Source of the DNA: Cladochytrium replicatum
Lineage: Eukaryota > Chytridiomycota > Chytridiomycetes > Cladochytriales > Cladochytriaceae
NCBI GenBank assembly: GCA_025526935.1
Contig: JAHLKD010000071.1
Coordinates: 1-64,000, forward strand
Reading direction: 5' to 3'
Length of the DNA stretch: 64,000 bases
Shown here: one piece after another, positions 23,502 through 27,979 of the stretch
Layout: every line of letters begins with the position of its first letter
Position numbering within the stretch: position 1 is the first letter of the stretch
Program-made: the position numbers and the translations under genes
Notes under the pieces: model-generated
What the model was told of the DNA's origin: nothing
Database searches by the model: none
Seen by the model: only the letters and a program-made list of their open reading frames with translations

Positions 23502-26500
23502 ATGGGAAACACTGAGTCTCAGCCTACCAAGTTCTTGAACGTCTGCGTGGATCATGCTGGAAATGAGGTCATCTTGACCATTTATGAGAACAAGACTCTC
23601 GGGAATTTGGAGAAGGAGGTAATCAACACAGTATCTTCATTTACCACGCTGACTTCTTTTTAAATTGTGGCAGGTGCGGAATGAATACGACATTGGTGAC
23701 CTTGATTTTCTTCTGTTCGCAATGCTGGATGGAGATCGGAAGCGTCTCAAATCCGACGAGGACGTAGAAGCATTGGTGGAGGGTCGATTGTTTGGATCAT
23801 TGGCGAAGTCACCCACCATTTTTGTCGAACTGGTCGGACGGACCGCAATTGCCCCAGTTACGCCGCCTCAAACAAATCCTCCAACGGCGATCGCGGGTTC
23901 AGGGTCCCAGTTTCCCAGATGTGAAACTTTTGATCTGATGTTGTCCTATCAGTAAGTAACCGGCCACTTTCTATGTTTCTTGGTAAGCTTAATTTCCGTT
24001 TCACAGATGGGACAGCAAAGAAAAGGTGCATCGCATTTATGACGACCTCACCTCTAGCGGACTCAAAGTCTGGATGGACAAGCACCAAATGAGCGGCGAC
24101 GTTTATACGCGCATGACTGAAGCGGTGAAGAACAGCAAGATTTTCTCTCCTTGCCTGACCTTGGCTTATTCAGTAAGTTTTACAAACTTTTTTGTTTTTT
24201 GTATGGTTATTGATTCCTTTGTTTCAGAAATCTTATAACTGCTTGGGAGAGATAAAGTACGCACACGTGCTTCGAAAGACCATTCTTCCAAACTTGCTTT
24301 GGAAACCTCTGCCAACAACACCAATTGATGAAATTTATGCCAAACTAAATGAAGTTGGATTTATGACTGCTGGCTTGTTGTTTGTTGACTTCTCAACGGT
24401 GGAGCCAAGCCAGTCTGAATGGAGGGTCAAAATAGCAGACCTCAAACTCGAGATCAACAAGCGTCTTTTGGATGTAAAACATACAGGTGATCACTCAGTG
24501 TCTTCAATAATGGACCCAGTTCAACCAGTATTGACTGCTGAACCACAAAACACTGATTTTCTGAAAGAATGGCTTATGCCAGTTGACATTGGACCTGATT
24601 TGCAAGTATATGCTGAATCGTATGTCAGTGGAACACGTCACTGGCTTCTTGAAAGCATCAGCAAATGGATTACTGACCTTGGTGCCAGTCAAGTTATGTG
24701 GCTCCGTGGTGGGGCAGGAGTTGGGAAATCAATCATGGCCTGGTTTGTTGGAGCTTACTTTGGTCGCAGCCTACCAACACACGCAGAGCAATCTTTGGAA
24801 AATGACCCGGCGGTTGATACTTTTCTTGGTGCCCAGTTTTTCTGCAAGTTTAACGACAGTCTCAAAAATGACCCCCATCATGTGATTCAAACTGTTGCAT
24901 ATCAGCTTGCTTTCTTTGATCCACGAATTCATGTATACCTGTCAGAACTCTGCAAAGAAGATCTTAAATCTAAACCATCATTATTAGATTTGGATGTAAT
25001 GACAAAGTATGAGAAACTTGTGCTTCAACCCCTCAGACACATTTACAACGAACAAGGGTCAAACCAGAAGATAGTTATTATTTTGGATGCACTTGATGAA
25101 TGTGGAGAAGCAGGTACAAAAAATAGAAAGAAATTGCTCTCAGCTCTTGCAAGCTCCACCAACAATACTCCAAAGAATGTCAAGCTGCTGGTCACTGGCA
25201 GGCCAGAGCCTGATCTTTACTCAATGCTCTATAACCTCTACTGCACAGAGCTCCGCCCAACAGATGAGGACAACCTGAAGGACATTAAAATCTATGCACA
25301 CGAGCGCCTCAAAATTTATCTTGGAACCAACAAAAGGCTGCTGGGTGAAGCTGTTGACCACCTCAGTGCAGCAGCAGATGGAATTTTGTTTGGATGCGAC
25401 TTGTTTGTGAACTTATATGGTCAAAATCTCCGAAAAATGAAGCTGAAGCAATGTCAATCATATCAGCACAAGGTCAAGGCATTGACTCAATGTATCATCA
25501 TCTCTTGGAAAATGCCCTCCAAACTACAGGAGGATCAGCTGAGAACTTCAGAAGGGTGTTTGGAATGCTCTGCGTTGTCAGAAGGCCAATTCCCTTGAGT
25601 GTTCTAGCAGAGCTTCTCAACATGGAAGACACTATTGTATCAGCTGAGTTGTTGCGTTATAGGTTTTTTATTGAGATTATGTCCAGTGGATCAATCAAGT
25701 TTATACACAAAAGCTTTAGTGACTACTTGACCAATCCTAGCCGCTGCAGTGATTCTAGGTTTACCATCAACTTATCATCCAGTGAAATAGTAATTCTAGA
25801 GACATGCTTGTACATTATGATGGCAAGTCTTTCTCCAAACATGTCAGGTTTGAGCTCCACAATCATTTATGACAAAATCCCTCTGTCTGCACTACAAAAG
25901 ATTCCCCAAAGTCTTTGGTATTGCTGTCGTTATTGGATTGAGCACTTTCTCAGGATTCCTGTCTCTTCATTGGACATAATAAGCAGAATATATATCTTTT
26001 GTGGAAAGCATCTTTTGACTTGGGCAGAGGTTATGATAATCAATCAAACTATTCAAACTGCAATAGGGCAATTAGAGAAGCTTTCTTCTCAAATGTCAAT
26101 TGCAAAAGGGATGTCGGGTAGGGGTAGACTCAGTGCAATTTCTGCACTAGAATCTCCAGCAGTTGAATATAGTGCAATAGCAACAAAGTTTATTGAGACA
26201 ATTACCATGGATCTTGCAAGAGTTCTGGAGTACTATTTGTTTCCAATTTCAAAGTGTCCTCTTCAGCTTTACTGCACGGGATTGGCATTCTGTCCAACCC
26301 AAACTGAGCTATGGAAGACGTACAGCAATATGGTGAACCGACAATTCTTTGCAGTGAAATTAACTATTGGAAGAGAATCATCATGGAGTCCACTACTCTG
26401 GACACATCAATTCTCCGATAGCTGCTATTCAGTGATGTACTCTCCAGATGGGAGTATGATTGCAGCAGGAACAGGAAATGACATAATCTTACTGAATGTG

Positions 26501-27979
26501 CAGTTCCATGCCGTCTTGATGAAACTTGGTGGTCATAGTAGATGGGTTCAATCAGTAGCGTGGTCACATGATGGGACAAAGATTGTGTCTGGATCAGATG
26601 ACTGTACAGTAAGAGTATGGTCAGCAATAACAGGAGAGGAGCTTATGAAGCTTGAAGGTCACAGTAAGTATGTGCGATCAGTAGCATGGTCACAAGATGG
26701 TACAAAGTTTGTGTCAGGATCAGATGACAGAACAGTGAGAGTGTGGTCAGCAATAACAGGAGAGCAGCTGATGACGCTCGATGGACACCGTTCTTATGTG
26801 CGGTCAGTGGCATGGTCACATGATGGGACAAAAATTGTTTCAGGATCATCAGACTATGCAGTAATAGTGTGGTCATCAACTACAGGAAAGCAGCTGATGA
26901 AGCTTAACGGTCACACTTCTTCGGTCAATTCAGTAATATGGTCACATGATGGGACCGTGATTGTGTCAGGGTCACATGACGGTACAGTAAGAGTGTGGTC
27001 AGCAGCAACAGGAGAGCAGCTGTTGAAGATTGGTGGTCAGACAGACTCTGTGAATTCAGTGGCAGGATCATATGATGGGACAAAGATTGTCTCAGGATCG
27101 TCAGACTGTACAGTGATGGTGTGGTCAGCAATAACAGGAGAGCCGCTGATGAAGCTTGAGGGTCACAATTCTGAGGTTTATTCAGTAGCATGGACACATG
27201 ATGGGACAAAGATTGTATCAGGGTCATATGACAATACAGTGAGGGTGTGGTCTGCAACAACAGGAGAGCTGCTGATAAAGCCAGATGATCCCAATGACTT
27301 TGTGAATTCAGTGGCATGGTCACATGATGGGACAAAAATTGTATCAGGATTTTCAGACTGTAAATTGACAGTGTGGTCGACTACAACAGGAGAGCAGTTG
27401 TTGAAACTTGGTGCTCACAGAGACTTTGTGAATTCATTGGCATGGTCATATGATGGGACAAAGATTTTGTCAGGATCATATGACTGTACAGTAAGAGTGT
27501 GGTCAGCAATAACAGGAGAGCAGCTGATTGAGCTTGACGGTCACAGTAACTATGTTCGATCAGTAGCGTGGTCATATGATGGGACAAAGATTGTGTCAGG
27601 ATCGTCAGACTGTACAGTGAGGGTGTGGTCAGCAATAACAGGAGAGCAGCTAATGAAGCTTGAGGGTCACTGTTCTTATGTGAAATCAGTAGCATTATCA
27701 GATGATGGGACAAAAGTGGTGTCACAATCATATGATGGGACAGTAATGATTTGGTCAGTATTCACTGGACAGCAGGTTGATGTTGACAGTTTATTATACC
27801 AGGATGATAGAAATGGAAAAGAGAATTTATTGCTTCAAGTTGATTCTGATGGATGGGCATTAATGTTTGGTCACATGTTCTGGTTTTCAGCAGAGATGAG
27901 GGGGAGGATGTACAATGGTGACAATGGAGTGTGTGTAGTTAATGGATCAAAGATATACTGTTTTGTAAGTCAAATGTAG
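23502..27979 (+). CDS. TIR-NACHT-WD40 NLR-type protein with one frameshift
   Basis: Exons 23502-23618, 23674-23951, 24007-24172 and 24228-27979; all three introns are 55 bp. The start MGNTES fits an N-myristoylation signal. Residues about 10-110 look like a beta-grasp (ubiquitin- or PB1-like) region. The TIR domain (about 124-268) reads FDLMLSYQ-WDS, GLKVWMD, and YNCLGEIKYA with Glu195 at the position of the NADase glutamate. NACHT follows: Walker A GGAGVGKS (about 348), Walker B IVIILDALDEC (about 470) and TGRPE. Near 25381-25384 a base seems missing, because the frame moves from AADGILFG to a frame reading VWMRLVCELIW. A helical region, one weak WD unit and ten near-identical WD40 units (26534-27793) complete about 1436 codons. 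By analogy with fungal STAND proteins it may sense non-self or damage and trigger a TIR response; this is inference. The frameshift leaves open whether the gene is active. Confidence 0.85.
26534..27793 (+). repeat. Ten in-frame 126-bp WD40-coding repeats
   Basis: Ten consecutive units of exactly 126 bp (42 codons), each close to H-xx-V-xSVAWSHDGTKIVSGS-D-TVRVWSAITGEQL-MKL-G. Units start at 26534 and then every 126 bases to 27668. A preceding unit (about 26405-26533) has lost the consensus. Differences are concentrated at a few positions per unit, such as the two or three residues before the conserved Val, typical of the variable face of high-identity fungal WD40 arrays. Confidence 0.92.

Follow-up and report, generated by a model that had tools for sequence, protein, structure and literature searches.

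A frame-interrupted TIR-NACHT-WD40 gene and its family of probable intracellular receptors in a chytrid fungus

The interrupted gene at 23502-27979

The 64,000-nucleotide stretch of Cladochytrium replicatum DNA considered here (contig JAHLKD010000071.1, positions 1 to 64,000; "the window") carries on its plus strand, at 23502-27979, a gene of the NOD-like receptor (NLR) type, in which an MGNTESQ start, a module of about 95 residues, a Pro/Thr-rich linker, a TIR domain, a NACHT domain, a post-NACHT region and a WD40 array follow one another in that order. Three GT-AG introns of 55 bases each were inferred within the first part of the gene, and the long fourth exon is divided between two reading frames:

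23502..23618, plus strand: exon 1, MGNTESQ myristoylation-type start and beginning of the N-terminal module (29 of 34 copies have both M-G and Ser6)
23619..23673, plus strand: intron 1, 55 bases, GT-AG, inferred (47-56 bases in the paralogue models, a few of which have unusual ends)
23674..23951, plus strand: exon 2, remainder of the module of about 95 residues, Pro/Thr-rich linker, first TIR strand FDLMLSYQ
23952..24006, plus strand: intron 2, 55 bases, GT-AG, inferred
24007..24172, plus strand: exon 3, TIR domain, BB-loop region GLKVWMDKHQMSGD
24173..24227, plus strand: intron 3, 55 bases, GT-AG, inferred
24228..25387, plus strand: exon 4, first piece, end of the TIR domain with Glu195 (NCLGEIKYA), linker, NPHP3_N/NACHT (GGAGVGKS, ILDALDEC)
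25377..25387, plus strand: frame interruption, the window being one base shorter than 19 matched family loci
25385..27979, plus strand: exon 4, second piece in the other frame, with the post-NACHT region, 10 WD40 repeats (register fixed at 42 residues) and C-terminal tail

In the spliced product FDLMLSYQ stands at residue 125, Glu195 lies in NCLGEIKYA, GGAGVGKS is found at 348 and ILDALDEC at 472, with GLKVWMD encoded between FDLMLSYQ and CLGEIKYA; every motif quoted in an earlier, sequence-only reading of this DNA is encoded where that reading placed it. In the spliced first piece Pfam matched TIR_2 (1.3e-13, residues 128-213), NPHP3_N (3.4e-27) and NACHT (3.6e-6); the second piece matched WD40 (5.9e-107, 10 stretches). 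Both NPHP3_N and NACHT exceed the cut-off, and with the Walker-type motifs GGAGVGKS and ILDALDEC they form the centre of an NLR, or STAND (signal transduction ATPase with numerous domains), protein; the WD40 array, carried in the window copy by the second reading frame, corresponds to the C-terminal superstructure-forming repeats of the NLR type. HET was not among the 6 Pfam families matched by the first piece at E up to 1, and LRR was absent from the 25 of 50 Pfam families listed for the second, where the array reads as WD40. The earlier assignment to a TIR-NACHT-WD40 NLR of a fungus, with a TIR match above threshold, thus agrees with the profile searches and with the Fungal_trans matches described below. 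Of the 33 family loci retrieved, 25 could be modelled in the same exon order, some of these models containing stops or questionable intron boundaries, and exons 1-3 are therefore unlikely to be a separate gene.

The same reading had taken 23502 to 27979 as encoding a single product, and this was not borne out. NACHT is read in one frame (24177-25598) and the WD40 array in another (25358-27979), so that exon 4 lacks a single open frame through its length. When 25200-25600 was compared by blastn with 20 whole family loci, 19 matched, all of which are one base longer at 25377-25387, a short T run; 17 of these have no other gap in the interval, the exceptions being L034 and L023. Because all 19 matched loci carry the extra base, the window copy is broken as assembled, and it is probably a recent pseudogene, if not the product of an assembly error. 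One continuous coding sequence, interrupted in the window, was found in 9 of the 20 fetched paralogues. An assembly or sequencing error in the T run, leaving the window gene intact, is a serious possibility that we nonetheless favor less than a true break: the difference is just one base, both frames are otherwise open (473 and 873 residues), and one base was suspected to be misassembled in a small homopolymer of a published Podospora het-d assembly (PMC12222747), but the T run is short and interruptions occur in several other family copies as well.

A clustered family with a conserved start and TIR domain

Related genes, which the sequence-only reading had not noted, were sought throughout the 50.5-Mb assembly of 198 contigs. 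The TIR_2 profile gave 71 matches genome-wide, and exon-level matches numbered 85 for the N-terminal module, 112 for the TIR segment and 59 for NPHP3_N. Merging of the family-like matches yielded 58 loci, of which 39 have module, TIR and NACHT, 16 others have module or TIR, and 3 are NACHT-only and may lie outside the TIR-NLR family. Two contigs hold 27 of the 55 loci with module or TIR (15 on C63 and 12 on C61); since NLR clusters in 37 Sordariales genomes comprise two to five genes, these clusters are large, and the same paper puts some plant NLR clusters at over 10 genes (PMC12258605).

Nine of the 20 whole loci (L021, L022, L024, L028-L032 and L038) read without interruption for 1400-1588 residues to a shared C-F/Y-L-K tail. 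L035 ends about forty residues short, at a stop just ahead of the usual tail; L026, L027, L034, L036, L039 and L040 are interrupted in their models; L025 (C80:13000-20800) runs into an N run inside the gene; and L023, L033 and L037 yielded no model. Some chosen introns of L028, L030 and L038 have unusual ends. A loss of intron 3 at locus C58, suggested by a long match, was ruled out by the presence of the intron in L041.

In the window gene and ten paralogues, the ratio of non-synonymous to synonymous substitution rates (dN/dS) comes to 0.27 in the module, 0.22 in TIR and 0.20 in NACHT. Synonymous changes between the window copy and L021 are unevenly spread, at 10/62 in the module, 15/96 in TIR and 71/149 in NACHT, and in NACHT the window copy is closer to L032 (81% amino acid identity). 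The window gene thus looks mosaic, which indicates exchange of segments between paralogues, a process in which this copy may still be taking part.

Several other loci were seen in the course of these searches. A second family member, L035 (C71:297000-303532), lies at the opposite end of the window's contig. L029 and L031 (C61:80100-87900 and 103700-111500) are closely similar copies separated by about 24 kb, which look like a recent duplication and in which 8 and 9 WD40 repeats were counted and residues differ at the variable sites. Another 21 TIR exon matches (at loci including L006, L010 and L014), with about 30-45% identity, were judged to be outside the family, and three of the extra TIR_2 loci form open frames 204, 155 and 170 residues long. 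Residues 1-330 of L021, searched against a protein database, returned 3201 candidates, none at E<=0.001, from a collection that may hold few spliced fungal proteins; an NCBIfam scan of its first 963 residues gave no family at the same threshold, and the one PDB single-sequence match to its first 692 residues (E 0.035) was judged to be chance.

Proteins that are N-myristoylated typically begin with M-G and have a small residue at position 6. Among the window copy and 33 loci, 29 of 34 sequences have the M-G start together with Ser6, one more has Gly2 without Met1, and four are unreadable there; this count was read from exon 1 located without its first residues, as models seeded from residue 1 or from ATGGGAA would be circular. 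The family start is of the type MGN[ST]xS, followed by variable residues at 7-10. The myristoylation signal suggested earlier therefore stands as a conserved motif, and the start fits a predicted N-myristoylation signal. A literature search for myristoylation in fungal NLRs, judged by titles, gave no title dealing with fungal NLRs.

The module that follows was earlier thought to be a beta-grasp region of ubiquitin or PB1 type. Its commonest weak Pfam matches are to families that we take to be ubiquitin-like, namely UN_NPL4 in 9 of 24 N-termini (best 9.8e-4), OTU1_UBXL in 8 (0.018) and Crinkler in 4 (0.053), and to this extent the suggestion survives; PB1 was absent from the 12 Pfam families listed for these N-termini with E no higher than 10. 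Profile comparison did not rise above permuted controls. Alignment with ubiquitin by hhalign gave a plausible register, with 18 of 100 permuted profiles scoring as well, and alignment with three of four Crinkler loci of the same genome was equaled by 14 of 100, compared with 83 of 100 for a TIR alignment used as negative control. Three matches of the module in PDB (E 0.087-0.84) were judged to be chance. Crinkler is described as ubiquitin-like, and is reported on fungal NLRs, in PMC9815663.

For the TIR domain, Glu195 aligns with the Glu of WVHKE in SARM1 (residue 642 along PDB chain 7knq_A), presumably the catalytic residue. Glu195 also aligned with a Glu of Cat1 in a TIR profile comparison (E 0.005) and, without significance, with a Glu of plant L6 (E 0.44 and 0.80). 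The motif CL/M-x-E-I/M around it is kept in 25 of 26 paralogue models, and TIR_2 was found in all 15 of the 26 models that were listed. The catalytic-type Glu that had been proposed is supported by alignment and conservation. That the domain might instead be a scaffold or adaptor, recruiting other TIR or HET proteins and having no NAD-cleaving activity of its own, appears unlikely: a conserved Glu alone is no proof of catalysis, and the genome offers possible partners in 71 TIR_2 and 19 HET matches, but the motif is retained in nearly all models, within a TIR domain under constraint.

Variable sites in the WD40 repeats

Variation was tabulated over 95 repeats of 42 residues from 11 genes, with the His of GH as position 9. 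The most variable positions are 30, 12, 14 and 32, then 11 and 10, and the positions between the leading pairs are conserved, with V13 in 91 and D31 in 90 of the 95 repeats. The proportion of non-synonymous differences (pN) at 12, 14, 30 and 32 is 1.85-2.76 times the repeat-wide proportion of synonymous differences (pS), and pN/pS is 0.48 over the 35 positions outside seven sites reported for the HNWD genes of Podospora. In the HNWD genes, codons 7, 9, 25 and 27 flank conserved codons 8 and 26; these four codons show strong positive selection and map to the propeller's top surface (PMC1805685), and variable sites are given in another numbering as 10, 11, 12, 14, 30, 32 and 39 (PMC12222747). 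An offset of five separates these numberings, both of which agree with the register used here, the mapping having been made in this analysis from text descriptions; so placed, the four most variable positions match the four selected HNWD codons in spacing and setting.

These substitution counts show a few WD40 sites to be hypervariable while module, TIR and NACHT are constrained. They bear directly on the proposal that the window copy is a plain pseudogene in a largely decaying family, whose variable sites would reflect relaxed constraint and not selection. The interrupted window frame speaks for it, as does the fact that just 9 of 20 fetched loci read through, the rest being broken, running into N or unmodelled, but dN/dS of 0.20-0.27 for the three domains in 11 genes, and an excess of pN over pS mainly at the expected interaction sites among the 42 positions, make general decay an improbable explanation.

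Elsewhere in the window, retrotransposon pieces occupy 1869-7080 on the minus strand (RVT_2 1.2e-39 in 1872-3410; Pol_BBD 2.6e-15 in 3265-7080), and a plus-strand frame at 7617-10181 encodes protein text similar to them. An 819-residue open frame with a hAT dimerisation region (2.2e-20) lies about 3 kb downstream of the NLR gene at 31254-33713 on the minus strand. Just upstream of the gene, 22900-23250 holds short repeated LDWW-type stretches that by eye resemble a decayed repeat gene; 22992-23249 gave no Pfam match. Tandem TTAGGG or CCCTAA was absent from the window.

A proposed receptor family and its relation to known systems

The genome has 24 matches to the Fungal_trans profile and 7 exon matches to a radial-spoke profile, 6 of them above cut-off and five on one contig, with none in 14 control genomes. 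From these a flagellated fungus was inferred, and the organism is probably one with swimming cells. The HET profile matched 19 times genome-wide, and together with the 71 TIR_2 matches this means that TIR and HET domains coexist in one genome.

We consider it likely that the window gene, with its interrupted frame, belongs to an expanded family of intracellular TIR-NLR receptors, arranged in clusters, in this flagellated fungus, with sensing like that of HNWD proteins and output like that of plant TIR-NLRs. The output part, TIR, is of a kind shared with plants, animals and bacteria. By analogy with those systems, N-myristoylation, perhaps with the ubiquitin-like module, would hold the receptor at a membrane or partner; the WD40 propellers would bind a non-self or modified-self protein through their hypervariable surface; NACHT would oligomerise with ATP; and the clustered TIR domains would cleave NAD+, triggering cell death or a nucleotide signal. 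Domain order, conservation, variable sites and expansion of the family are shown by the sequences themselves; lipid anchoring, ligand binding by WD40, NACHT oligomerisation, NAD+ cleavage and cell death are functional steps transferred from comparison and are meant as predictions.

A number of points weigh against this interpretation. As assembled, the window copy is unable to make the whole protein. The ubiquitin-like identity of the module is weak and serves as a lead. The openness of the first ~270 residues in the paralogue models is partly built in, the introns having been chosen by rejecting or penalising stops there, a rule not applied to the long exon 4. Constraint is weaker in the first eight residues (dN/dS 0.42) and in the linker (0.44). 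In the repeats, reported site 39 is not unusually variable (entropy 1.13), positions 1, 2 and 7, outside the seven sites, also have pN at least equal to repeat-wide pS, and with local pS the four leading sites give just 1.43; these ratios come from pairwise counting of non-independent, partly saturated comparisons with no likelihood test, and the placement of the HNWD positions is our own. Heterokaryon incompatibility is not known from flagellated fungi. The repeats average 66% amino acid identity in the window and 66-81% in the 11 genes, compared with over 80% to 100% within a gene for HNWD (PMC12222747).

The resemblance to HNWD proteins and to plant TIR-NLRs is a comparison of action and no claim of membership, since the HET domain and repeat identity of HNWD were not found. 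With the HNWD genes of Podospora anserina (HET-E, HET-D, HET-R) the chytrid family shares NACHT, a long array of 42-residue WD40 repeats, the most variable repeat sites in a matching setting, and a multigene organization with broken copies; it differs in having TIR instead of HET, an N-terminal module with a myristoylation-type start, less similar repeats, more copies and large clusters. Plant TIR-NB-LRR proteins (L6, RPP1) likewise have an N-terminal TIR on an NLR with Glu at the matching place, but they combine it with NB-ARC and LRR instead of NACHT (NPHP3_N) and WD40, and the TIR similarity is not significant (E 0.44-0.82). SARM1 and the CRISPR-associated TIR protein Cat1 have the aligned Glu, whereas no ARM or SAM domain was found by Pfam in the window gene, and NAD+ cleavage by the chytrid TIR is a prediction. 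The Crinkler and other ubiquitin-like N-terminal domains of fungal NLRs share with the module the weak likeness to UN_NPL4, OTU1_UBXL and Crinkler described above, and differ from it in that the best E-values are modest and the Crinkler comparison falls within permuted profiles.

Least probable of the alternatives is that the family serves allorecognition or mating/fusion incompatibility in place of parasite defence: its hypervariable WD40 sites are the counterparts of those in the HNWD family, of which three members control incompatibility, but a flagellated fungus would be an unexpected setting for incompatibility of hyphal fusion.

The sequence-only reading had also held a TIR domain to be rare on fungal NLRs, and here it overstated the case. 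A 2014 survey found no NLRs in chytrids (PMC4986451); a 2022 survey states that TIR had by then been reported in NLRs of Chytridiomycota, outside Dikarya (PMC9815663). Chytrid TIR-NLRs are therefore already known, and what appears new, as not seen in the searches made, is their combination with the module, the start motif and the variable WD40 sites; no description of module, start, TIR, NACHT and WD40 signature together was found in the literature searched, outside which most subscription papers lie. Searches of that literature on fungal TIR-NACHT proteins, on ubiquitin-like or Crinkler modules joined to TIR and NACHT, and on TIR in NOD-like receptors of early-diverging fungi returned no paper. 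A bolder proposal, offered tentatively and with doubt, is that a flagellated fungus has some forty TIR-NLRs clustered as in plants, anchored to membranes by myristoyl group and ubiquitin-like module, with WD40 repeats diversified at the sites that the incompatibility receptors of Podospora use.

Defence and strain incompatibility are both candidate origins of fungal NLRs. A large, clustered TIR-NLR family with HNWD-like sites, in a fungus where hyphal fusion is no obvious driver, lets both ideas of origin make different, testable predictions, and the coexistence of TIR NLRs with HET domains in this genome helps in tracing the relation of HET to TIR; a conserved start of the lipid-anchor type is also shown here on fungal NLRs. 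If the bolder proposal is true, the diversifying sensor of HNWD type would predate, or be independent of, hyphal-fusion incompatibility and would serve immunity, with TIR the older output and HET its later counterpart.

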